From Alteromonadales bacterium alter-6D02 (GTDB lineage Bacteria > Pseudomonadota > Gammaproteobacteria > Enterobacterales > Psychrobiaceae): 64,000 nt of DNA. The notes under the pieces were generated by a model that saw nothing but the letters and a program-made list of their open reading frames with translations, had not been told where the DNA came from and made no database searches. Position numbers and translations under genes: made by a program. This document shows, piece after piece, positions 5,043-26,793 of the stretch. The first letter of the stretch is position 1. Each line of letters starts with the position of its first letter. The DNA is taken from positions 62,001-126,000 of the forward strand of contig PIZK01000023.1 of the NCBI GenBank assembly GCA_002835545.1. Reading direction: 5' to 3'.

Positions 5043-6290
5043 TTAATAACCTAACCAATCAACGCGACGGTCTAATGTAACTTGAGATACCTTTTCAATG
5101 GCAATATCACCGCCATTGTAGTTACCTTGATAAATATTCACTTGGTTAATACCACGATGGTCATCAGCTTTCCAATTGGCTGCAAGACAGACACCTTCTA
5201 GGCCTTTTGGCACCCAGTTATCACGAGCGTACATGCCTTTTTTGATATTTTCCCCTGTGATCCCTCCGTTTTCTTTTGCCCACTCCATGGCCTCTTTCAT
5301 GAAGTAGGTTGAACATACCCCTCGCATATAATGATGGACACGTTCTTTCTGTCCTTTAGGATCTGACATCTTAGAGATCTCCTTAATCAAGGCCATGCCA
5401 GGTGACGTGTCGGTCCAAAACGGTGTCATTGTTGGAAAGACATAATTCTTGATACCTTCGCCACCCGCTTGAAAGATCTTCTTATCGCCTCCCCAAATGT
5501 TCGACATGAATTGAATATTGGTACCGACAGTGTTACAGGACTTGACTAACGACAACACCGACCCCCCTAAATTACCAATATAACCATAATTAGAACCAGA
5601 ACTTTTCAGGCTTAAACACTGCGCTTTGAAGTCTCCAGGTTTCATAGAAATAACCACAGACGGCATTACTTTAAATCCGAGCTCCTGAGCATATTCGGCA
5701 CAAGCAGCCTTAGGCGCATTTGGAAAGGGGTGATTAGCACCAATGTGAGTAAATTTAGGTTGCCCTTGGTTGCCTTTCTTCTTCCAGTCAGCTGCTGCCC
5801 ACTGAACTAAACCGCGACATGCATCAGAATAAGACGCACCATAAAAAAAGTTATAAGGCGCAGGTTTCTTCGTATGCGGATTCTTACCTTGCGGATCGGT
5901 TAAATGTCCCGAATAAGATGCTGAGAATACCGGTGTCTTATCTTTGGCCACAAAAGAGATCAGCGCTTCCGTGTCAGCCGTTCCCCACCCTTGCATCGCT
6001 ACCATCTTTTTGCGTGAATGCCATTTTTTATATGATGCAATCGCTTGAGGTACTTTATAAGCGTAATCGATTGTTTCATATTCCAAAGCAGTACCTTTTA
6101 TACCACCATTTTTATTGATATAAGCCAGGGAATCTCTCACACCATCAGCGTAATTTTTTCCCACAAACGCCGTTGGCCCAGACATATCAGCAAGGTGACC
6201 GACAAACACGGAATCTTTTGCTTGTGCTTGGCTTGCTACGCCCACTGTAAGACAGCTTAAAATAGAAGTTACTAATACTTTCTTTTGCAT
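5043..6290 (-). CDS. Periplasmic substrate-binding protein of the Liv-type importer
   Basis: 415 residues with a Sec signal peptide (MQKKVLVTSILSCLTVGVASQAQA, cleavage predicted after AQA). The mature part is a type I periplasmic binding fold (Peripla_BP_6): FVGHLADMSGPTAFVGKNYADGV at the N-terminus, then NKNGGIKG. It is larger than LivJ/LivK of enteric bacteria (about 345 mature residues) and contains several cysteines (C at the CRGLVQW, ACAEY, KSCNTV and GVCSTYF segments), so disulphides are possible. It lies between livM and livF. Ligand not deducible from sequence alone. Confidence 0.88.
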   Translation of the reverse strand: MQKKVLVTSILSCLTVGVASQAQAKDSVFVGHLADMSGPTAFVGKNYADGVRDSLAYINKNGGIKGTALEYETIDYAYKVPQAIASYKKWHSRKKMVAMQGWGTADTEALISFVAKDKTPVFSASYSGHLTDPQGKNPHTKKPAPYNFFYGASYSDACRGLVQWAAADWKKKGNQGQPKFTHIGANHPFPNAPKAACAEYAQELGFKVMPSVVISMKPGDFKAQCLSLKSSGSNYGYIGNLGGSVLSLVKSCNTVGTNIQFMSNIWGGDKKIFQAGGEGIKNYVFPTMTPFWTDTSPGMALIKEISKMSDPKGQKERVHHYMRGVCSTYFMKEAMEWAKENGGITGENIKKGMYARDNWVPKGLEGVCLAANWKADDHRGINQVNIYQGNYNGGDIAIEKVSQVTLDRRVDWLGY

Positions 6291-6355: not shown

Positions 6356-7429
6356 TTAATATGAAAATGGATAAAATTTCCAATAGTTTTTAATTTGTGC
6401 CCAGCGATGGGCCATACCTTCTGGCTCGAAAATTAAGAACAGGATAATTACCAAGCCAATGGCCATCTCTTTGATGTAAGCAAGGCCATCCACGACCATC
6501 GGTATGTTGCCCCAATCAGTCATTTTCATCATGCCTACCCCACCTTCGAGTACCTCTGGTAAGAACACCATAAAAACAACGCCCATTAAGGTGCCTTTAA
6601 CAGAACCTAAGCCACCGATAATAATCATCGCTAAGAACTGTATAGACATGAAGATAGTGAACCCTTCCGCCGAAACATAACCTAAGTAATGAGCATAAAG
6701 CGCACCACCAATACCTGCATAAAATGAAGACACACCAAATGAGAGCAAACGGTATTTATTCAGTTTAATCCCCATTATTTCTGCTGATAGGTAATGGTCA
6801 CGCACAGCGACAAACGCACGACCTTCACGAGAACGCATTAAGTTACACCCCCAGATGTACATAAACACTAGAGCAAACAACGCGATATAGAAGAAACTTT
6901 CATCTGTATCAAAGACAATACCCATTAGTGAAATAGGTTCTGCAGAGGCTCCGGCTGAGCCACCAGAAAACCACTCCGCCCGAGCAAAGAAATCTTCAAG
7001 AATGAATTGTGCAGCTAAGGTGGCGATAGCAAGGTATAGCCCTTTAATCCGAGACGCCGGCAGGCCAAATAGCATCCCCACTGCCATAGTGATAAAACCG
7101 GCCATGGGAATACATAACCAAACAGGAATACCAAACGAGGTATTCAGCCAGGCAGATGTAAACGCACCCACTCCAAAAAAGGCACCATGACCCAGTGATA
7201 TTTGACCGGTATAACCGACTAAGATATTTAACCCTAGCGCAGCAATCCCCAAATATGACACTTGGATGAACAGCGTTAAATAGTAAGCATCTAATACCAT
7301 TGGCGCTGCACAAAGTAGTGTGATAGCGGCAATCGCGACTAATCGAATAGTGTTAGTCTCATAAATCGTATCATCTTGTTTATAGCTGGTACGGAAATCT
7401 CCGCACGGTCGCATCATTAAACTCGACAT
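6356..7429 (-). CDS. livM: ABC importer permease, LivM type
   Basis: 357 residues from the Met preceded by an AGGAG box five bases upstream; the frame is open 20 codons further but that part lacks a ribosome binding site. A cytoplasmic N-tail of about 25 residues is followed by roughly eight to ten membrane segments. Family motifs are LGLNILVGYTGQISLGHGAFFGVGA and IIIGGLGSVKGTLMG. It forms the inner-membrane channel with LivH. The C-terminal half includes the EAA-like segment for ATPase contact. It follows livH by 87 bp. Confidence 0.88.
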   Translation of the reverse strand: MSSLMMRPCGDFRTSYKQDDTIYETNTIRLVAIAAITLLCAAPMVLDAYYLTLFIQVSYLGIAALGLNILVGYTGQISLGHGAFFGVGAFTSAWLNTSFGIPVWLCIPMAGFITMAVGMLFGLPASRIKGLYLAIATLAAQFILEDFFARAEWFSGGSAGASAEPISLMGIVFDTDESFFYIALFALVFMYIWGCNLMRSREGRAFVAVRDHYLSAEIMGIKLNKYRLLSFGVSSFYAGIGGALYAHYLGYVSAEGFTIFMSIQFLAMIIIGGLGSVKGTLMGVVFMVFLPEVLEGGVGMMKMTDWGNIPMVVDGLAYIKEMAIGLVIILFLIFEPEGMAHRWAQIKNYWKFYPFSY

Positions 7430-7516
7430 AAAAACTCCTGAAATTAGGTTGAGTAGCAGGTATCCCCTATGAACATCACCTGCTAACATGACTTTGTACT
7501 GTGTATCGTAATATCA

Positions 7517-8410
7517 CTAAATACGTTCGATATCTTTAGTGCCAAATAAGCCGTAGGGTTTGAACCATAAGATAATCAACAGGACATAAAATGGCGCAAT
7601 GTCATACATATTGCCGACATGGAGATATTGACTATCGAAGAATTCAGCCACGTTCTCGAGCACCCCAATCGTTAAACCACCAACAATGGCACCCACAACA
7701 GAATCTAACCCGCCTAAAATAACAGCAGGGAATACCTTAACGCCCATCGTTGATAATGAGTTTGATACACCATTAACCAAGCCGATAACTACACCAGCTG
7801 TTGCTGATAACGTCGCAGCAATACCCCAGCTCATCGCAAAGACCTGTTTCACTGAAATACCCAAACTTTGTGCAATCTGCTGATTAAATGCGGTCGCTCG
7901 CATCGCCAAACCATACTTCGAGTACTTAAAGAACAGGAAGAACGCCACCATAATCGCTAATGAAATTACCGTACTCATCAAATAAGCCATTTCTATGTTA
8001 AGACCTAGAATTTGTACACTTTCACTTTCAAATACCTTGGGATAACTCTGTGGTGACACGCCAAATATCCACTTCATTAGTGATTGGAAGAAAATAGATA
8101 GGCCAATGGTGATCATAATTACCGAGATAATCGGCTCACCAATCATTGGCCTGAGTACCACCATCTGTAGTAATACGCCAAACAGAGCCATAAACACCAT
8201 GGTGAGAATAAAACCCATAAAGAATGGCAGTTGAAAGTAAGTTAGAAACGCCCAACAGACCCACGCACCGACGAGTAGAAACTCCCCTTGGGCAAAGTTG
8301 ACAATTTGTGTTGATTTATACACCAGCACAAAGCACATCCCGACCACGCCGTAAAGCAAACCAACAATGATCCCGTTCACAATGAGCTGCATTAATAATT
8401 CAAAATTCAT
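7517..8410 (-). CDS. livH: ABC importer permease, LivH type
   Basis: 297 residues, the normal length. Hydrophobic throughout with the family signatures LLYGVVGMCFVLVYKSTQIVNFAQGEF near the N-terminus and VFPAVILGGLDSVVGAIVGGLTIG near the C-terminus. The start overlaps the end of the upstream ligase by 4 bp (ATGA type), which indicates translational coupling of ligase and permease. Partner of LivM. Confidence 0.9.
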   Translation of the reverse strand: MNFELLMQLIVNGIIVGLLYGVVGMCFVLVYKSTQIVNFAQGEFLLVGAWVCWAFLTYFQLPFFMGFILTMVFMALFGVLLQMVVLRPMIGEPIISVIMITIGLSIFFQSLMKWIFGVSPQSYPKVFESESVQILGLNIEMAYLMSTVISLAIMVAFFLFFKYSKYGLAMRATAFNQQIAQSLGISVKQVFAMSWGIAATLSATAGVVIGLVNGVSNSLSTMGVKVFPAVILGGLDSVVGAIVGGLTIGVLENVAEFFDSQYLHVGNMYDIAPFYVLLIILWFKPYGLFGTKDIERI

Positions 8411-10359
8411 GACACTTTCCTCTCTAAACTAGGGCTAGTCGACTCAATGCTTGGTGTAATTAATGTTTCAACATTGAGCTTAGTTTGAATCCGTGTTTTA
8501 GTGCCGTCTTGGAATACAATCATTGTATCAATATCAACAGCTTGCGCGTCATCATAAACAGATTCAATAATGTCACCATACTTCTCGGCCACCACCCCTC
8601 GGCGAACTTTACGGGTACGAGTTAGCTCTCCATCGTCAGCATCTAGCTCTTTATAAAGCAAAACGAATTTATGGATCTTCTGCGCAGGTGGGAGAGTTTC
8701 ATTGACGCGAGCAACTTCTTCACTGAGTTTTTGATAGACCTCAGGAAGTGATGAAAGATTGGTATAATTAGTAAAAGCAAGACCTTGCTGTTCTGCCCAT
8801 TTTGATAAAATACTAAAGCGGATACATATCAACGCGGATAGATAAGGTTTATCTTTACCCAGAATCACTGCTTCGCCGATAAAGGATGAGAATTTTAGCT
8901 TGTTCTCAATGTATTGCGGTGAGTATTGAACATCGTTACTAGTGCGAGCCAAGTCTTTAATTCTATCGATAACAACTAAATGACCTGACGGTTTAAAGTA
9001 ACCTGCATCACCGGTATGCATCCACCCATCTTTAACATCTTCATCGTAAGCAGTTTGATTGTTAAGGTAACCTGTAAACATCCCCACGGTTTTAGCGATG
9101 ACTTCCCCTAACCCTTCTTTATCAGGGTTAATGACTTTAATCTCTGCACTGTCGAAACATACACCAACACTGTCATAATCAACATCGTCCTCTTTGTGAA
9201 TAGTGTAGGCACCGCACATTTCTGTTTGGCCATAAAGCTGACGTAGCGGTACTCCAATAGTTTGAAAGAACTTAAAGGTATCAGGCCCCATGGCAGCACC
9301 ACCCGTTGCGGCAGACTTTAGGAATGAAAACCCAAGACGGTCGCGTAATGCCTTCATTAATAACCATTCCGCTAAACGCGAAGTTTTACCTTGTTCACGG
9401 TAACGATCAGCTCGCGCCATCGCAAAGTCATATAAGCGACGTTTAAGGGGGGTTGAGTCCATCATTCTTGCTTGCACATCGGCTAGGATCCCTTCCCAAA
9501 CCCGAGGTGCTAAAAGAACAAAGTGAGGGCCTATTTCACGAAGGTCAGACATCAACGTTTCTTGTTCTTCGACAAAATTGACCACTTGCCTGGCAATCAA
9601 TGCCTGACCTACCGCATACACTTGCTCCATAATCCATGGCAGAGGGAGTACTGATACATAGTTATCACCAGGCTGGCGGGGATCGGCACGTAAATACGAA
9701 CTACAGTGTTGAACAAAATTGCCACCATTGAGCAGCGCAATTTTGGGTTTAGACGTCGTACCCGACGTGGTGCAATATATCGAAATGTCGTTTGCAGATG
9801 TCGCGTCCACCAGCTCATCGTAGCGCTTAGCATGCGTTTTATCTATTCGCTGGCCACGCTCATAAATCGTTTCAACACTGATTAAACGTTTATCGTCATA
9901 TTTACGCATACCGCGTTTGTCACAATAAACAATGTGCTTAACCTTTGGGATTTTGTCGCCTAGTTCAAGCAACTTATCACACTGTTCTTCATCTTCAGCA
10001 ATGACTACAGTCGCGCCACTACTATCAAGTAGATAAACGACTTCATCGTGCATTGAGTCTTGATAAATACCTAACGAATAGCAACGCATTGCATGAGCTG
10101 CAACTTCACCCCACACCCACTCGGGACGATTATCACCGATTAGCGCCACAGCATCCTCTGGGTTAATATCCATATCAAGTAGCGCTAACGTAATCCACTT
10201 AACTCGGTTGTGATAGTCGAGCCAAGTAAACTCATTCCAAATACCGAATTCTTTCTCCCGCATAGCAATATCTTGCGGAAAATGTTGCGCATTGTGACGC
10301 AATATTTTGGGAAACGTATCTAGTTCCCCCATATCAAAAGTATTTAATTGATCACTCAT
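8407..10359 (-). CDS. Long-chain acyl-CoA synthetase-like AMP-binding enzyme
   Basis: 650 residues, the length of FACS/FadD15-like synthetases. The P-loop is slightly variant, SIYCTTSGTTSKPKIA (Ser where Gly is usual in TSGTTGKPK). The adenylation motif is QLYGQTEMCGAY, and DGWMHTGDAGYFKPSGHLVVIDRIKDL is the hinge region. It activates a carboxylate to an acyl-CoA via an acyl-AMP. It is inserted between livG (1-bp TAATG overlap) and livH (4-bp overlap), so its synthesis is tightly tied to the transporter. I infer vectorial activation of the imported acid; the substrate is not known. Confidence 0.85.
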   Translation of the reverse strand: MSDQLNTFDMGELDTFPKILRHNAQHFPQDIAMREKEFGIWNEFTWLDYHNRVKWITLALLDMDINPEDAVALIGDNRPEWVWGEVAAHAMRCYSLGIYQDSMHDEVVYLLDSSGATVVIAEDEEQCDKLLELGDKIPKVKHIVYCDKRGMRKYDDKRLISVETIYERGQRIDKTHAKRYDELVDATSANDISIYCTTSGTTSKPKIALLNGGNFVQHCSSYLRADPRQPGDNYVSVLPLPWIMEQVYAVGQALIARQVVNFVEEQETLMSDLREIGPHFVLLAPRVWEGILADVQARMMDSTPLKRRLYDFAMARADRYREQGKTSRLAEWLLMKALRDRLGFSFLKSAATGGAAMGPDTFKFFQTIGVPLRQLYGQTEMCGAYTIHKEDDVDYDSVGVCFDSAEIKVINPDKEGLGEVIAKTVGMFTGYLNNQTAYDEDVKDGWMHTGDAGYFKPSGHLVVIDRIKDLARTSNDVQYSPQYIENKLKFSSFIGEAVILGKDKPYLSALICIRFSILSKWAEQQGLAFTNYTNLSSLPEVYQKLSEEVARVNETLPPAQKIHKFVLLYKELDADDGELTRTRKVRRGVVAEKYGDIIESVYDDAQAVDIDTMIVFQDGTKTRIQTKLNVETLITPSIESTSPSLERKVS

Positions 10360-11159
10360 TAACTGATCTCCTCTAACTGCTCATTCTCGTCCTCAATCCC
10401 TAAGTAAGCCCGTTTAACATAAGGGTCAGCCATAACATCATCAGGTAAACCACAAATTAGTTTTTTACCAAAATCAAGGACCATCACTTGATCTGAAATA
10501 TCCATCACCACCCCCATGTCATGCTCAATCATCACTATGGTGATGCCAAACTCCTGATTTAGATCGAGAATATAACGGGCCATGTCTTCCTTTTCCTCAA
10601 GGTTCATTCCCGCCATTGGCTCATCAAGCAAGATTAATTTTGGCTTTAACGCCATGGCACGGGCGAGTTCAACGCGCTTACGCAGCCCATAAGACAGCGT
10701 TCCGGCCACTGATTTGCGAATATGAGAGATTTCTAGAAAATCTATGACTTCTTCAACCTCACGGCGATGCTCGAGTTCTTCTTGTTGGGCTTTACTTGCC
10801 CAGTAGAGTGGCCCCGTCAACCAGTTGTTCTTTAACATATGGTGACGTCCAACCATGATGTTCTCTAATACACTCATATGACCAAATAACGCTAAGTTCT
10901 GGAATGTCCGGCCCATGCCAAGATCTGCACGGTCATTGGGTTTCAAATGAGTAACATCTTTGTTATTAAAACTTATTGAGCCACTGTTAGGTTGATAGCG
11001 ACCCGAAATGCAATTGAGCATCGATGTCTTGCCGGCCCCGTTCGGGCCGATAATTGAAAAAACAGCGCCTTGCTCAACTTCAAAGCTAACATCGGTGAGC
11101 GCTTTAACGCCACCAAAGGCCAGCGAGATGTGTTCTACTTTTAGTATTGGTTTTGACAT
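10359..11159 (-). CDS. livG: ABC importer ATPase, LivG type
   Basis: 266 residues. Walker A is GPNGAGKTSM and the Q-loop region is GRTFQN. The signature is degenerate (TLSYGLRKRVELARAM instead of LSGGQ), as is common in LivG. Walker B is LILLDEPMAGMN, and the switch His segment is TIVMIEHDMGVVM. The C-terminal LivG extension (RAYLGIEDENEQLEEI) is present. Its stop overlaps the ligase start by one base. It is separated from the porin by 92 bp that contain a perfect palindrome. Confidence 0.9.
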   Translation of the reverse strand: MSKPILKVEHISLAFGGVKALTDVSFEVEQGAVFSIIGPNGAGKTSMLNCISGRYQPNSGSISFNNKDVTHLKPNDRADLGMGRTFQNLALFGHMSVLENIMVGRHHMLKNNWLTGPLYWASKAQQEELEHRREVEEVIDFLEISHIRKSVAGTLSYGLRKRVELARAMALKPKLILLDEPMAGMNLEEKEDMARYILDLNQEFGITIVMIEHDMGVVMDISDQVMVLDFGKKLICGLPDDVMADPYVKRAYLGIEDENEQLEEIS

Positions 11160-11251: not shown

Positions 11252-12301
11252 TTACAGGGTATATTGCAAAGAAATCTGCGCGTAATTTGAATCAGCGTTT
11301 TGCTCATCCATCGAGAAGTTTCCGACTTCAAAACCCACAGCTAATTGTTTAGTAATGTTATTGAAGAGGTTAACGCTCCACTGAGAACGCTCAGCACCTG
11401 AGACATCTGCGTCTATTTTTCCGTAGAGTACCGTTGAGCGAAGGTTTTCATCCCAAAAATGACGATAGGCTGCTAAATAAGAAGTAACATCTTCGACTTT
11501 TTCATCGACTAAGTCTTTAGCCGCTGCCACACCGACATAACGACCGAGCTCACCTTGATGAATCTGGAATCTGAAATCATCTTTACCAATAGACTGAATG
11601 CGACCTGCGATCGATGCTCCAAAAGTACTTTTGTTTTCACCTGATACAGTGGTTAGGCTTCGCGCTAAACCAGAAACAGAAACACTTCCCCAATCGCCTT
11701 TAGCGTTATAACGAGCAACGACATCTGGTACATTGTCATTACTTGGATCGCCGCCCCACGATTCAGGGTTTTCTACAGAGAATTGAAAGTTTCCTGTGGT
11801 GTATCGCAATTGACCTTGCCTAATAAAGACTAAGCCTGTTGTCGCACCAGCAAAGTCCGCCGATTCGGGGATCGCACTAGTATTCATGAATGTCGACCAC
11901 GTCTGCCCCGCTGTAATTCCTTTATATTTGATAAAAGCATGGCGTAAGCGTGGGTTGGCTGAGTTAGAAACAATCTGATTGCCGCCACCACCAAGAAAGT
12001 CCAGTTCGATATAACCCATCAAATCGCCATGAACGTATTTAGTATTAAAGCGGGTTTCATTGGCATTAATTCTAAACTGAGACGCGCTCTCATCGAGTAC
12101 AGCGCCCGTACCAATCCAAAAGTCACGGTAGGCAACATCACCGTCAACATAGCGACCATCGATTTTGATATAACCACCAAACGAAATTGTGTCCTCGTCT
12201 GATATCTTTATTTCATAGCCTGCTGATGCCACGCTACTTGCACCGAGTAAAGTGGTAGCAACTAACATTTTTGCATAATTATTCTTAGCTAATTTAATCA
12301 T
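11252..12301 (-). CDS. DcaP-like outer-membrane porin
   Basis: 349 residues with a signal peptide (cleavage near SVASA/GYE). The mature part alternates as in a beta-barrel and ends in Leu after an aromatic-rich last strand (YAQISLQYTL). The motifs SFGGYIKIDGRY, FRINANETRFNTK and AGQTWSTFMN match the DcaP family, whose studied member in Acinetobacter passes dicarboxylates and phthalate-like acids. It is the first gene of the importer operon and supplies the outer-membrane step. Its promoter region is shared with the divergent sensor kinase and holds the 14-bp repeats. Confidence 0.8.
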   Translation of the reverse strand: MIKLAKNNYAKMLVATTLLGASSVASAGYEIKISDEDTISFGGYIKIDGRYVDGDVAYRDFWIGTGAVLDESASQFRINANETRFNTKYVHGDLMGYIELDFLGGGGNQIVSNSANPRLRHAFIKYKGITAGQTWSTFMNTSAIPESADFAGATTGLVFIRQGQLRYTTGNFQFSVENPESWGGDPSNDNVPDVVARYNAKGDWGSVSVSGLARSLTTVSGENKSTFGASIAGRIQSIGKDDFRFQIHQGELGRYVGVAAAKDLVDEKVEDVTSYLAAYRHFWDENLRSTVLYGKIDADVSGAERSQWSVNLFNNITKQLAVGFEVGNFSMDEQNADSNYAQISLQYTL

Positions 12302-12378
12302 TCATACTTCCTTGGTTGTCTTGTTGTTTTTTATTAATCCTACCCCTCGCGTTAAAATCAACAATTGGAATTACGGGC

Positions 12379-12462
12379 TAGCACTCGGTGCTTAACACTA
12401 AACAACTAACGCTTTTAAATTAGTGCTTTACATTTAGTCCTTAAGGACTAGTACTTTCTTTC
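12379..12462. repeat. Six direct repeats at an exact 14-bp period (iterated operator candidate)
   Basis: The repeats start at 12379 (TAGCACTC), 12393 (TAACACTA), 12407 (TAACGCTT), 12421 (TAGTGCTT), 12435 (TAGTCCTT) and 12449 (TAGTACTT). The core TARYNCT is kept in all six; T1, A2, C6 and T7 are invariant. The fifth copy forms part of a perfect 16-bp palindrome, TAGTCCTTAAGGACTA (12435-12450). The array lies in the divergent region between porin and kinase. Binding by the neighbouring LuxR-type response regulator is an inference. Confidence 0.75.
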
Positions 12463-12534
12463 GTCGATAGTTTTTATATTGATGAGGTCTTTTATGGTAA
12501 GTTTTACCGTATGTGGTAGTTGTCTAGGAAGTGT

Positions 12535-15500
12535 ATGTTTTCAAACTGGTTACTAATCAATGTTAGCCTCGGTTATATCGGCCTGTTATTTCTGATTGCT
12601 CACCTAGGTGGCAAATACCGACATCAACTCGCTGAAAGACAACACACCATCATTTATGCCCTATCTTTGGGGGTATATTGTACTTCGTGGGGTTTTTTAG
12701 GCACATCAGCACAGGCTGCCAACAACTCTTTTACCTACTTATCCGTTTATTTAGGTCCGATCTTATTATTTATTTTTGCTTGGCCGCTAATACAACGAAT
12801 CATAAAAACGAGTTTAGCGCTTAAAATCACTTCTATTGCAGATCTCCTTTCTGCTCGTTTTGGAAAAGCACGAAACCTAGCTGTGTTAGTAACAATCGTC
12901 GCCTTGATTGGTACCTTGCCTTATATAACACTCCAACTTAAAGCCATCATTTACTCATTCACTATATTGCAACAGGAGCAAAACCTAAGTGAGTGGAAGC
13001 TTGGATTAATTATTAGTGTCATCCTTGCCATCTTTACCATGATCTTTGGTATCCGCACCATCAATGTCACCGAACGGCACCCAGGTGTTATGATAGCCAT
13101 AGCATTTGAGTCATTAATTAAATTAACAGCTTTTTTAATGGTGGGACTCTTTGTTAGTTTTGTCGTTTATGATTCCCCCATCGAAATCATTAACTTAGCT
13201 ATTGAGCAACAAGCCATCTCTAAGCAGTTTGAGCCCGGTAATTTTGTGGCAATGGTTGGGTTACTAATTATTGTGATGTCGGCTTTTTTGTGTTTGCCAC
13301 GCCAATTCCAAGTGATGTTTGTTGAAATTAAAGACAAAAAACACAGTAGTTGGGCCCGTTGGCTACTCCCCGCTTACATATTAATTTTTGCACTGTTCGC
13401 CGCACCAATCGGCTTAGCGGGAAAGCTAAATTATGGGGAGTCCTTACAATCGGCTGCGTACGTTTTATTTTTACCCGCCTATGATGGTGAAATATGGCTG
13501 TCATTGTTTGCGTTTATCGGCGCAATCTCTGCTGCTAGCTCAATGGTTATTGTTTCAACTATTGCATTAAGCACGATGTTAAGTAATGAAATTGCTTTCC
13601 CACTACTGTTTAAACTGACTAAGCAAAAACAGCAGTATTACGATCGATTTAAAGCTCAGTTGCTATTAACCCGCAAACTGCTCGTTGTTGTTGTCATTGC
13701 GTTAAGTTATGCAATGTTAATTCTCTCCCCTGCTGATACACTCGCGTCATTAGGTGAGGTCGCCTTTGGAGCAATAGCACAGATAGGACCGAGTTTGTTA
13801 GCTGCTTTCTTTTGGCGCAGAGCAACATTAGTGGGTGTATTAACAGCAATTAGTACAGGGTTTTCTATCTGGGTGCTGTTTAATTTAATGCCTCAATTAG
13901 GTCTGTATACACACCCATTACTAAACACTAACTGGCCTGCGACAACCACAATAACGTTAATTGCCTTAGCAGCCAACATCACAGTGCTGTATAGCGTTTC
14001 GGTATCGACGCGGCAAAGCATTCGTGAACAGATGCAAAGTAAATATTTTAACCAATCAACCGACAAACCACTGTGGCAATTCACAAAACAGCCGAACATA
14101 GAAATTAGAGAGCTTGAATGTCTTGTCGCGCGCTTTATCGGTGATCAGAAGGCAAAAGCCTGTTTTACAAGCTTTATTGCTACCACCGAAGCAGACAAAC
14201 CCAAAGATTATAATCAAGCGCTAATCCTTCATACTGAGCAAACGCTAGCCAGTATTATGGGCGCTGCCTCAGCAAAGCTTGTAACCTCGTTTGCATTAGG
14301 CGGTCGTGATATTGCTTTTGATCAGGTCGCCGACCTTGTTGAAAAGAACTCTACCCAACAACTCGAATTTAATCGCACGGTATTACAGCGCGCAATTGAA
14401 AATGCCAGCGAAGGCATCTCAGTAATCGATAGCGAACTCACTTTAGTGGCTTGGAATGACAAATACCTTGATATCTTTAACTTCCCAAAACACTTAATTT
14501 ATATCGGGGCACCGATCTCAGAACTAATACGCTTTAACCTAACACAACAGCATAACGTGTTAGATATTGAACATCAGGTACAAAAGCGCCTAACCTATAT
14601 AAAACAAGGAAGTCGACATAGTTCAGAGCGTCAACTTAAGAATGGCAAGGTAATACATATTGAGGGCAATCCTATCCCTGGTGGTGGCTTTGTTATGATC
14701 TTTAGTGATATTACCGTTTACCGTCAAACAGAAGCATATTTAAAAGAAGAAAATGATGACTTAGAAAACCGAGTTGAAAAGCGAACAAGTGAATTAGAAA
14801 AAGCTAACCAAGAGCTTGAACTTGCCAACTTAGAGCTGGCACAAGCGCAGCAGCGTGCAGAACAAGCCCATCTCAAAAAGAGCCAATACTTAAGAGCCTG
14901 TAGTCACGACCTATTACAACCACTCTCTGCCGCACGATTATTCTCTTCAGCGCTGAGCTTAAGTCCTCGTGTGAATGCTCAAGAACGTGAACAAATGGAT
15001 CAGATTAACACTTCATTAGAAATAGCGAATACCCTATTACAAGATCTTAACGAGATGGCACGTATTGAGAGTGGCAATATCACGCCTGATATACGAGTAT
15101 TTAGCATCAATGAACTCTTTGACAAGCTGGTGGCAGAATTCAATGCTATGGCAGGCGAGTATAAAGTAAAGTTTCGTTACCATCATTCAAGGTTATACAT
15201 TAAAAGTGACCTAACCCTGCTTTCTCGAGTGATTCAAAACTTTTTAAGTAATGCGTTTCGTTACAGTAGGCAAGGACAGGTCGTACTGGGTTGCCGTCGA
15301 CGAGGTGATTCAGTGACAATTCAAGTGATTGATACGGGTCCCGGCATCCCTCAATCAATGCAACAAAAGGTGTTTAATCAATTTACACAATTGTCTGGTA
15401 ATCAATCTACGATTGGACCGAAAGGACTTGGCTTAGGTTTAAACATTGCGCAAAGTCTAGCTAAGCTCTTAGGCCACCCACTAGGTTTACGCTCAGCCCA

Positions 15501-16047
15501 AGGACATGGCAGCACATTCGAAATCACCGTCCCGACAGCTCAAAAACCAGTTATATCCGCTAAGCTTTTCCCTAATCAGCGGATCTCTCTCAAGGAAGTA
15601 GGCGTACTGTGTGTGGATAATGAGCCACAAGTACTGGCAGCGATGACCGCCTTACTTACAGGGTGGCAATGTAACGTTTTTAGTGCATCTACACCAGAAC
15701 AAGCCTTAACCCTGTTTTCACAGCACAAAGATCAGATAGATATCCTACTAATAGATTATGAGTTAACAGATGAAATAGATGACCAAACGCTAGTCAAACC
15801 ACGTGACGATAAACAAGAGGCTGTGTTCAATGGGATTGGCTTAACTCAGCAGTTACGAAGTCAACGGTCGTACCCACTTCCAGCGATTTTGATCACAGCA
15901 ACCAACGATGAATTTGTTAAAATAAATGCTAAACGACATAATATAGCGTTTTTGGCAAAGATTATTAAACCACTAGCACTTCGCTCATTAATGAGTGCAT
16001 TATTAGCACAGACCTTAAAAGATAATTACCTTAGCCGGGAACGATGA
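12535..16047 (+). CDS. CrbS/MxtR-like hybrid histidine kinase with sodium:solute symporter domain
   Basis: 1170 residues. Residues 1 to about 490 are a polytopic SSS (PutP/ActP-like) domain. A PAS domain lies at about 614-732 (IENASEGISVIDSEL). A coiled coil is at about 735-782. The HisKA/HATPase module follows with phospho-acceptor H791 in SHDLLQPL and N-box QNFLSNAFRYS. A receiver lies at about 1022-1158 with phospho-acceptor D1074 (LLIDYEL), Thr in LITAT and Lys in KIIKPL. This is the architecture of CrbS/MxtR, which control the acetate switch with a LuxR-type regulator. I chose ATG 12535 because AGGAAG lies just upstream; a TTG at 12520 is in frame but lies in front of that box. Divergent from the porin operon, which it may control. 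Confidence 0.85.
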   Translation: MFSNWLLINVSLGYIGLLFLIAHLGGKYRHQLAERQHTIIYALSLGVYCTSWGFLGTSAQAANNSFTYLSVYLGPILLFIFAWPLIQRIIKTSLALKITSIADLLSARFGKARNLAVLVTIVALIGTLPYITLQLKAIIYSFTILQQEQNLSEWKLGLIISVILAIFTMIFGIRTINVTERHPGVMIAIAFESLIKLTAFLMVGLFVSFVVYDSPIEIINLAIEQQAISKQFEPGNFVAMVGLLIIVMSAFLCLPRQFQVMFVEIKDKKHSSWARWLLPAYILIFALFAAPIGLAGKLNYGESLQSAAYVLFLPAYDGEIWLSLFAFIGAISAASSMVIVSTIALSTMLSNEIAFPLLFKLTKQKQQYYDRFKAQLLLTRKLLVVVVIALSYAMLILSPADTLASLGEVAFGAIAQIGPSLLAAFFWRRATLVGVLTAISTGFSIWVLFNLMPQLGLYTHPLLNTNWPATTTITLIALAANITVLYSVSVSTRQSIREQMQSKYFNQSTDKPLWQFTKQPNIEIRELECLVARFIGDQKAKACFTSFIATTEADKPKDYNQALILHTEQTLASIMGAASAKLVTSFALGGRDIAFDQVADLVEKNSTQQLEFNRTVLQRAIENASEGISVIDSELTLVAWNDKYLDIFNFPKHLIYIGAPISELIRFNLTQQHNVLDIEHQVQKRLTYIKQGSRHSSERQLKNGKVIHIEGNPIPGGGFVMIFSDITVYRQTEAYLKEENDDLENRVEKRTSELEKANQELELANLELAQAQQRAEQAHLKKSQYLRACSHDLLQPLSAARLFSSALSLSPRVNAQEREQMDQINTSLEIANTLLQDLNEMARIESGNITPDIRVFSINELFDKLVAEFNAMAGEYKVKFRYHHSRLYIKSDLTLLSRVIQNFLSNAFRYSRQGQVVLGCRRRGDSVTIQVIDTGPGIPQSMQQKVFNQFTQLSGNQSTIGPKGLGLGLNIAQSLAKLLGHPLGLRSAQGHGSTFEITVPTAQKPVISAKLFPNQRISLKEVGVLCVDNEPQVLAAMTALLTGWQCNVFSASTPEQALTLFSQHKDQIDILLIDYELTDEIDDQTLVKPRDDKQEAVFNGIGLTQQLRSQRSYPLPAILITATNDEFVKINAKRHNIAFLAKIIKPLALRSLMSALLAQTLKDNYLSRER

Positions 16048-16125: not shown

Positions 16126-16794
16126 TTAGATACGAGCACCGTTTGGTAACACAGCATTAGCAAGTTGTAATTCATTTAACATGATGACAGCTTGCGTGCG
16201 GTTTTTAACACCCAGTTTGAGAAAGATGGTGCTTGCGTGGCTTTTAATCGTCGACTCAGATAAGCCAAGCTCGTAGGCAATTTGTTTATTAAGCAAACCA
16301 TCGGCAAACATCAATAAGATTTTATGCTGCTGTGGGGTCAACGAGGTAATACGCTCATCAGCCTCAGTTGACTGTTCAACGTTATGGTTATGTGATTCGC
16401 CCGGTAGCCAGACATTGCCGGCTAATACCTCATTAATCGCAAGAACCATTTCTGGCACAGGTGTAGATTTAGGTATGTAACCGCAAGCCCCTTGACTCAT
16501 GGCTTGATTGATTGAATCACTGTCTTCGATTCCAGACACAATAACCACGCCTAATTGCGGGTAAAGCTGTCTAATGTTCATCAAGGTATTAAAGCCCTGA
16601 CCACCTGGGATATCCAGATCAAGTAATAGCAAATCAGCCTGTTGCTGTGCTAACAAAGCTTCTAAAGCAGAAATAGTGTCAACTTCTGATACCTGCGCCT
16701 CATTGATATTTGTTTCAAGCATCATTGACAGTGCTTGACTGAACAAAGGGTGGTCATCCGCTATTATTATTTTTATTTGGGGTACCATATCCAT
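16126..16794 (-). CDS. LuxR/NarL-type response regulator, CrbR/ErdR-like
   Basis: 222 residues from the ATG preceded by AAAGG at good spacing; the open frame extends 31 codons further without homology. The receiver has the acidic pair IIADDHPLF, phospho-acceptor Asp in LLLLDLDIPG, and Lys in GYIPKSTP. The C-terminal LuxR helix-turn-helix has LTPQQHKILLMFADGLLNKQIAYELGLSESTIKSH. It converges on the kinase gene (3' ends 78 bp apart) and is the obvious partner. CrbR/ErdR proteins activate acs and related acid-use genes; control of the porin/Liv/ligase operon is inferred from location and the repeat array. Confidence 0.85.
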   Translation of the reverse strand: MDMVPQIKIIIADDHPLFSQALSMMLETNINEAQVSEVDTISALEALLAQQQADLLLLDLDIPGGQGFNTLMNIRQLYPQLGVVIVSGIEDSDSINQAMSQGACGYIPKSTPVPEMVLAINEVLAGNVWLPGESHNHNVEQSTEADERITSLTPQQHKILLMFADGLLNKQIAYELGLSESTIKSHASTIFLKLGVKNRTQAVIMLNELQLANAVLPNGARI

Positions 16795-16980
16795 TACAGC
16801 CTTTAATTGTTGATATAGGTTGCGCCTGTAGTTTGCATAGATCGTTACTGATATGAAACCGATTAAGAAAGTTTTCAGGCGCGCCATATTATTGATTAAT
16901 AATACAGCGAACGCCTTGAGAAGTTCAAGCGATAAACGACGATTAAAAGCTATAAATACAATTAAGTAATAAGCTTATAA

Positions 16981-24612: not shown

Positions 24613-25637
<1,025 letters not shown>

Positions 25638-25683
25638 GATATTAAATTGTTTTTGAAAGGCGATAATTCTACGTCATGACAAC

Positions 25684-25709
25684 ATCAATAGCTAGGCTAG
25701 GCTATTGAT
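25684..25709. repeat. Inverted repeat upstream of pheS
   Basis: ATCAATAGC (25684-25692) and GCTATTGAT (25701-25709) form a perfect 9-bp stem with an 8-base loop. There is no T-tract next to it on the minus strand. It may be an operator or part of the leader RNA. Confidence 0.45.
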
Positions 25710-25800
25710 AATTGGTCGATGATCATGCATTTAATCACATTTTTTAGTAGTTTTTACCTATAAAGGCAGCACACCACGCTTAAATAATATTCATTCTCAA

Positions 25801-26793
25801 TTATGTGAAATCTCGAAGAATTAATTTACCTTTGGTTTGATTCATTGCAATCCGTTCAAAAGCTACACTTACTTCATCATAACGGTAGCTTGTATCGATA
25901 ACAGGTTTAAGCCGTCCAACCTTAAAGCACTCACTGAATTGTTTCTCAAACTCACTCACAAGTTGTTGTTTATACACTAACGAGCGGTTTCTGAGTGTGG
26001 ATGATGTCAGTGTCACCCTTTTTGACAGTAATTTTGCAAAATCTAAACGCTCACCATACCGGCCACCCAACATAGCAAGATTGACAATAGTCCCATCAAT
26101 AGCTACTACATTGATGTTTCTGGTTAGGTACTTTGCCCCGATGAAATCAACGATAACATCGACACCTGATGTTTTTGTGCGCTGTACTATTTCCGTTTCG
26201 AAGCAACTCTGCTGATAATTGATACAATGATCTGCACCCAGTGACAGTGTAAATTGCGCTTTATCATCACTACTGACGGTGGTAAAAACCTCAGCACCAA
26301 CTGCTTTAGCAAGCTGTATTGCAGCAGAGCCAACACCACTTGCACCAGCGTGTATTAATACCCTTACGTGCCCCTGCGCTATCCGCTCATTTAACTTCGC
26401 AATCATAAATAGTGCTTGATAGGCCGTTAAAAAAGCCTCTGGAATGGCTGCGGCTTCAACAAAGCTTAATCCCTGTGGTATTGGCATAACACACACTTCT
26501 GGCACAACCACTTGTTCGGCGTAGCCCCCTCCAGATAATAACGCCATCACAGCCTGTCCCACTTCAAACTTTGAATTCTTCGGCGCACTCCTCACTACCC
26601 CAGCGACCTCTAGCCCAATAACATCACTTTCACCTACCGGCGGTGGGTATTTACCAGCAAGTTGCAATAAATCAGCTCGGTTAACACCACTTGCTTTAAC
26701 GTCTATTAACACGTCATTGACTTTCTTGATTACAGCAGGCTGTTCAGCAACAACCAAGTTATCTCCAGCTCTGCTGGGTATTAAACATTTCAT
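25801..26793 (-). CDS. NAD(P)H quinone oxidoreductase (PIG3-like zinc-free MDR family)
   Basis: 330 residues. GroES-like N-terminal domain with SGVNRADLLQLAGKYPPPVGESDVIGLEVAGVV, then a Rossmann fold with the cofactor loop HAGASGVGSAAIQLAKAVGA. The zinc ligands of alcohol dehydrogenases are absent. The sequence follows the TP53I3/QorB-like group, which reduces quinones with NADPH. It lies upstream of pheS on the same strand but with a gap of about 180 bp that contains hairpins, so separate transcription is likely. Divergent from rlmI. Confidence 0.85.
   Translation of the reverse strand: MKCLIPSRAGDNLVVAEQPAVIKKVNDVLIDVKASGVNRADLLQLAGKYPPPVGESDVIGLEVAGVVRSAPKNSKFEVGQAVMALLSGGGYAEQVVVPEVCVMPIPQGLSFVEAAAIPEAFLTAYQALFMIAKLNERIAQGHVRVLIHAGASGVGSAAIQLAKAVGAEVFTTVSSDDKAQFTLSLGADHCINYQQSCFETEIVQRTKTSGVDVIVDFIGAKYLTRNINVVAIDGTIVNLAMLGGRYGERLDFAKLLSKRVTLTSSTLRNRSLVYKQQLVSEFEKQFSECFKVGRLKPVIDTSYRYDEVSVAFERIAMNQTKGKLILRDFT

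Follow-up and report, generated by a model that had tools for sequence, protein, structure and literature searches.

A conserved array of TA-sharing inverted sites as a putative operator between a CrbS-paralogous kinase gene and a porin/Liv-ABC/ligase operon

A gene for a hybrid histidine kinase and a minus-strand porin/Liv-ABC/ligase operon lie divergently at this locus, and the intergenic region between them carries heptamers in a strict phase. In the window, by which we mean the whole stretch of 64,000 nucleotides analysed, the heptamers are found at 12379 (TAGCACT), 12393 (TAACACT), 12407 (TAACGCT), 12421 (TAGTGCT), 12435 (TAGTCCT), and 12449 (TAGTACT). The six TARYNCT copies at exact 14-bp steps reported in the initial annotation were thus reproduced at every position, as were the invariance of T1, A2, C6, and T7 in all six heptamers and the presence of a perfect 16-bp palindrome (TAGTCCTTAAGGACTA, 12435–12450). 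The description of the copies as direct repeats holds for the 14-bp repetition itself, but the unit is better read as a 16-bp inverted site with dyad symmetry, composed of a heptamer, 2 bp, and an inverted heptamer (7-2-7), of which each repeat is the left half. The site consensus is TARNNCY-NN-RGNNYTA, and the TA that closes one site also opens the following one; the period is 14 bp (16 minus 2) because neighbouring sites overlap by their TA. The array is also longer than six copies, since a degenerate extra site (12365–12380) is present on the operon promoter side. The coordinates of these elements and of the surrounding genes are collected in Table 1.

Table 1. Positions in the window of the genes, sites, and predicted promoter elements.
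Feature	Position	Strand	Remark
Periplasmic substrate-binding protein	5043..6290	-	
LivM-like permease	6356..7489	-	
LivH-like permease	7517..8410	-	
AMP-forming acyl-CoA ligase	8407..10359	-	
LivG-like ABC ATPase	10359..11159	-	
DcaP-like porin, operon gene 1	11252..12301	-	
Predicted -10, TAGGAT	12337..12342	-	16 bp from TTGTTG; read by sequence
Predicted -35, TTGTTG, porin operon	12359..12364	-	abuts terminal site
Terminal site, operon-proximal	12365..12380	-	TAGCCCGTAATTCCAA on minus strand; outer half fits, inner half degenerate
Site 2	12379..12394	.	TAGCACTCGGTGCTTA; TA common to neighbours
Site 3	12393..12408	.	TAACACTAAACAACTA
Site 4	12407..12422	.	TAACGCTTTTAAATTA
Site 5	12421..12436	.	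TAGTGCTTTACATTTA
Site 6	12435..12450	.	TAGTCCTTAAGGACTA, perfect palindrome; proposed loading site
Last heptamer, TAGTACT	12449..12464	+	inverted half unrecognisable
Hybrid histidine kinase, CrbS paralogue	12535..16047	+	putative transporter-like N-terminal domain; PAS, HisKA, HATPase, REC
LuxR/NarL-type response regulator, candidate array binder	16126..16887	-	3' of kinase

When the window is taken alone, the significance of the array is borderline, because the consensus and the period were picked after the fact. Runs of more than one TARYNCT at period 14 occur on either strand of the window at the array alone, and a scan restricted to period 14 gave four invariant columns in 0 of the 60 Markov copies generated from the window. 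In a free scan for six copies at periods of 8–40, on the other hand, four invariant columns were found in 3 of the 60 Markov copies, and the window itself has a second place, at period 38, where four are reached; this is the argument that could be made for a chance origin in intergenic DNA that is AT-rich. Tandem Repeats Finder, as run on the window, did not include the array among its repeats.

The comparison between loci was more informative. The ligase alignment was scanned against genome contigs with the best 80 named loci retained, and the kinase gene was divergent from the operon in 16 of these best 80, which belong to Colwellia, Litorilituus, Pseudocolwellia, Thalassotalea, Shewanella, Parashewanella, and one MAG called Oceanospirillaceae. 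(The kinase on the contig with this last title, L076, groups with those of Colwelliaceae, and the contig is possibly misbinned or transferred.) The comparison set consisted of 19 intergenic regions, that is, those of the 16 named loci, the window, and the genomes G004 and G037. With the half-site defined as TANNNCY or its complement and the expected pair counts derived from shuffles, same-strand pairs in the 19 loci numbered 59 at 14 bp (1.0 expected), 34 at 28 bp (1.0 expected), 29 at 42 bp (0.9 expected), and 14 at 56 bp. Forward-to-reverse pairs in the same loci were in excess at +9 (24 versus 0.5), at −19 (27 versus 0.5), and at −5, which corresponds to TA sharing (37 versus 5.1). Same-strand pairs at 7 bp were enriched too (31 versus 1.1), and the 14-bp step is thus not absolute. 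The count in the 14-bp phase was above that of the locus's own 200 shuffles in each locus (p 0.005 to 0.03), with p-values that overstate the significance because the compared loci are related. Furthermore, when the phase was anchored on the operon-proximal conserved 16-mer, which avoids picking the best phase, TA was present at 0 and 14 bp upstream in 19/19 loci and at 28, 42, and 56 bp in 12, 13, and 11 of the 19, compared with a mean of 1.75 off the 7-bp grid; in a thinned set of 11 loci, the corresponding counts at 0, 14, 28, 42, and 56 bp were 11, 11, 7, 8, and 7 against a background of 0.97. The 59 pairs against 1.0 over the 19 loci and the anchored grid refute chance, to which we attach a negligible probability. 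The array, whose absence from orthologous regions had been named in the initial annotation as evidence against it, does recur there and is accepted as real because it is conserved across 19 related loci. As judged by these comparisons, it is a conserved series of predicted overlapping CrbR/NarL-type sites in a 14-bp register, ending at a likely promoter.

The 19 loci also provide natural variants of the array, with unit numbers from about 3 to 7, in addition to losses within the same genus. L055 and L085 have just three half-sites in phase. In five loci of the Colwellia group, the in-phase run ends after three or four units and is followed by a second cluster that is out of phase. A small second site cluster nearer the kinase and out of phase was observed in L070, L074, L075, L077, and L081, where it is perhaps for the kinase promoter. 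A block like TATGTTAAATTT..ATAACA, recognised by eye, is conserved between the array and the kinase in L070, L074, L078, L083, L084, and L090, and it could be a −10 element of the kinase gene or a CRP-like site.

The letters of the site were tallied over 95 units as T1 86, A2 80, C6 78, G11 62, T15 79, and A16 89, in a count that is not independent, as the units were picked by score for these same letters. A phase of this kind might also be preserved by copying rather than by function, if the array were a relic of tandem duplication (minisatellite). Exact 14-bp copies are indeed found in L084, and the likeness of adjacent units at non-motif columns is higher in L084 and L085 (0.75 each) and in L069 (0.62). 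At the eight non-motif columns of the window, however, adjacent units are alike at 0.45, compared with 0.38 between species, and both the motif columns and the abutment to the promoter are kept across genera. Apart from a contribution in L084, a minisatellite origin was thus rejected, and we regard it as very improbable.

As for the type of site, NarL sites are inverted heptamers 2 bp apart (7-2-7), each taking one dimer, and the sites described here have the same 7-2-7 form; the window regulator is similar to NarL as well (1a04, E 4.5e-21). We know of no regular 14-bp tiling of NarL sites with a shared TA. In the accessible text of a study of CrbR/ErdR (PMC5715377), the ACTU is described as an imperfect 7-2-7-like inverted repeat, e.g. 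TACGACTAAAGTCTAAA, which is needed for activation, lies immediately ahead of the acs promoter (−52 to −36), and occurs once per promoter, at acs, actP, and two further genes. So far as that text describes it, the ACTU and the present sites share an inverted ACY..RGT-like core and the regulator family, and their positions relative to the promoter may be similar, whereas the 14-bp tiling, the paralogous kinase/regulator, and the different operon are particular to the locus studied here.

The operon-side end of the array appears to be tied to a promoter. TTG immediately follows the terminal 16-mer in 19/19 loci, including L077, in which the marker used to locate the 16-mer already contained TTG. 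A box-scoring script took the abutting TTG as the −35 element in 15/19 loci, and for the window it favoured boxes 3 bases further along (TTGATT-N17-ATTAAT). Seven loci have N16 with a TANTAT/TATGAT-like −10 element, and six Shewanella loci have N17 with CATCTT. If the abutting TTG is the −35 element, the centre of the terminal site would be near −42.5 (about −46.5 in the other register), not far from where the ACTU lies before acs (−52 to −36). In the terminal site, C6 is present in 19/19 loci and G11 in 0/19, with only the outer half kept, and this element may be a half-site. At the opposite end, the distal contiguous site has the joint best core in 15/19 loci when the site order is scored by the core ACYNNRGT (rank sum 12.5 versus 25.0 expected; permutation p 0.003, which is approximate for related loci). 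The combination of a terminal site with TTG, followed by 14-bp steps, could serve as a rule for finding promoters of this type.

We consider it likely that the repeats serve as an array of operators for a LuxR/NarL-type regulator in its phosphorylated form, presumably the one encoded at 16126–16887, which would be driven by the kinase and load stepwise to the promoter. In this mechanism, the CrbS-like kinase (12535–16047) would drive the adjacent response regulator, one dimer of which would occupy each 16-bp inverted site, with the shared TA setting the dimers every 14 bp. The first dimer would load on the distal and most symmetric site (12435–12450 in the window), and the weaker sites would then be filled by the recruitment of further dimers toward the operon, until the last one, at about −42.5 and beside the −35 element, contacts RNA polymerase for class II activation. 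The outcome would be a steep switch of the porin/Liv-ABC/ligase operon in response to the signal, and the distal end of the array may also act on the divergent kinase gene. The signal is probably a carboxylate, which we propose because of the kinship of the kinase to CrbS, the ligase, and the DcaP-like porin.

The geometry of such an assembly would be unusual. By arithmetic at 10.5 bp per turn, a 14-bp step makes an arc of about 480 degrees, successive dimers are rotated by about 120 degrees, and after 42 bp (4 turns) the fourth dimer lies on the same face as the first. Because each 14-bp step rotates by about 120 degrees, the stacking of neighbours on the same face cannot explain the strict phase, and contact between the tiled dimers may be made through the shared TA. 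The closest analogue found in the literature is BvgA at Pfha and Pptx, which, according to the accessible text of PMC7250471, is arranged as head-to-head dimers in a row with a spacing of 22 bp, corresponding to two turns and one face; at Pfha, the most upstream site is the best, and the row ends with a site directly next to the −35 element. Within what that text covers, the present array is alike in its LuxR-family regulator, in having the distal site as the best one, and in having its last site abut TTG, as far as can be read from sequence, but differs in its 14-bp step with shared TA and rotation of about 120 degrees, as opposed to 22 bp on one face. The spacing peaks in the 19 loci were indeed at 14, 28, and 42 bp, and 22 bp was not singled out (5 observed). 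For RpuR, the regulator of another SLC5/STAC kinase, the accessible text of PMC9100948 reports that a repeat between −80 and −43 at mctP is required for full activation; this is likewise a repeated element for a regulator paired with a related kinase, although mctP, as described there, has one imperfect direct repeat and not an inverted array that shares TA. No 14-bp tiling by LuxR-type regulators was found in the literature searched, most subscription journals being outside the search; the site is thus known in kind, and the tiled arrangement was not found there. The array offers a case in which the assembly of a response regulator out of phase with the helical repeat of DNA can be tested.

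More tentatively, and with somewhat less than an even chance in our estimation, the dimers might form a continuous helical coat in which each protomer covers 7 bp and each dimer 14 bp, with a rotation of about 120 degrees from dimer to dimer and three dimers to every four turns; the coat would start at the distal end, reach the −35 element, and use TA as the dimer joint. If true, cooperative assembly would have a second geometry in addition to the one-face 22-bp arrangement of BvgA. The same overlap could also mean that the sites are alternative registers that are not fillable together, in which case the array would concentrate or buffer the regulator locally. Neighbouring sites do have two base pairs in common, neither 14 nor 28 bp coincides with the helical repeat, direct spacings of 7 bp also occur, and the odds of this explanation are raised because the terminal site seems to be only a half-site. 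Alternative registers, however, have no need for one phase across five or six sites or for a fixed contact at −35, and the distal-best polarity fits stepwise loading. We therefore judge them rather unlikely and retain stepwise loading as the preferred mechanism.

Further details concern the neighbouring kinase/regulator pair and its relationship to the CrbS/R system. The start codon of the kinase gene (ATG) was assigned by comparison with relatives, and the true start of the regulator is probably at codon 32 or 34. Residues 2–498 of the kinase match a solved histidine kinase chain (10ed, E 4.4e-53), and the C-terminal domains were detected; the N-terminal part gave no Pfam SSF match, as was also the case for the acs-linked kinase of the same genome. 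This second such kinase, 39% identical, is beside acs (G000:C16:20952–24368 and 24728–26596). In a tree of 46 kinases, obtained by a quick method with several long branches and built without reference CrbS from Vibrio or Pseudomonas, the window kinase fell in a 24-row clade (SH-aLRT 100) and the acs-linked kinase of its own genome outside it. The window system is thus regarded as a CrbS/R paralogue because its kinase falls apart from the acs-linked one, and the label of CrbS-like kinase holds as to kinship but not as to identity, the acs-linked CrbS-like kinase being elsewhere on the same contig. Against the ErdR model NF041830 (curated cut-off 390), the window regulator scored 194.3 bits and the acs-linked regulator 253.8 bits, both below the cut-off. 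The two regulators (the adjacent one and the acs-linked one, G000:C16:20087–20815) are 45% identical and have near-identical recognition helices, and the sites could be common to both because these helices are nearly the same.

The distribution of the array nevertheless favours the adjacent regulator. Among the best 80 loci, at least four in-phase half-sites were present upstream of the operon in 15 of the 16 loci with the kinase (three in the other one) and in 0 of the 61 assessable operon loci without it, 3 of the 80 not being assessable; the 61 kinase-less loci had 2 in-phase half-sites in 47 cases, 1 in 10, and 3 in 4. The GC content was below 50% in 14 of the 61, and none of these 14 reached four. 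Within the genus of the window, the count was 7 in its own genome and 5 in G004, both with the kinase, compared with 2 or 3 in G003, G005, G006, and G007, in which kinase matches were at most 44% identical. The regulator gene was near the kinase in 16/19 loci, and the misses were two contig ends and L081, where its absence near the kinase is real. Among 95 loci (L054–L148), five or more in-phase half-sites clustered within 90 bp only in this intergenic region, in 11 loci and in L068, the latter representing the region of the window itself; of 60 Markov copies, each of 64 kb, 1 reached five in-phase half-sites. Around kinase orthologues without the adjoining operon (G009, G014, G027, G034, G050, and G055), clusters did not exceed 3 in the stretches examined. 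Taken together, the conservation and the co-occurrence with the kinase support the proposal in the initial annotation of a phased operator linked to the kinase and regulator encoded next to it, and they predict which operon is targeted by a CrbS paralogue, so far unstudied, of marine Colwelliaceae and Shewanellaceae.

It could still be argued that the binder is the acs-linked CrbR-type regulator, alone or sharing the sites with the adjacent one, and that the array is an expanded ACTU. Besides the similarity of the two regulators, the form of the site equals that of the ACTU, and G003, which has no orthologue of the kinase, keeps a perfect pair of sites sharing TA before the same operon. The arrays of at least four half-sites, however, track the paralogous kinase as described above, and the four genomes of the same genus that have acs-linked kinases but no paralogue reach at most 3. 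Nor, for the most part, were similar arrays present upstream of acs: among 28 of 30 acs loci that were assessed (L163 and L171 were too short), 26 promoters had at most 3 in-phase half-sites. The two exceptions, which speak for the acs-linked regulator, are G034 (L154) and G009 (L159) of one genus, with overlapping sites that share TA and 4–5 half-sites in phase. We consider binding by the acs-linked regulator improbable on balance, and the adjacent regulator is kept as the candidate binder.

To extend the search beyond this region, a 44-bp sequence profile (R1) was used genome-wide, with 150 of 1006 first-look candidates scored, so that arrays elsewhere may be missed. In the window's own genome, R1 gave 6 matches at E ≤10, two of them (E 0.04 and 3.1) to the window array, and when 39 genomes were searched, matches at E ≤0.1 were obtained in 8. 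A match in the own genome that outscores the window array is at G000:C6:241827 (E 0.003, both strands), where three in-phase ACTU-like units are present upstream of a DUF3718 gene (L179/L195, G000:C6:241827–241866). This array was not seen in six same-genus orthologues, and one ACTU-like site was recognised by eye in about three of them. The matches in G017, G026, and G030 appeared by eye to be 7-bp or TTAAG-type simple repeats, such as a simple tandem array of the 7-mer CCCTTAA in L191 (G030:C1:88292–88333), and another match was found in G010. Near-exact 14-bp tandem repeats with half-sites were observed between unrelated genes in L193 (G004:C15:65327–65367) and L189 (G034:C23:10407–10446), and ACTU-like sites were present upstream of a DUF1302 outer-membrane-type gene in L188 (G003:C63:19652–19683).
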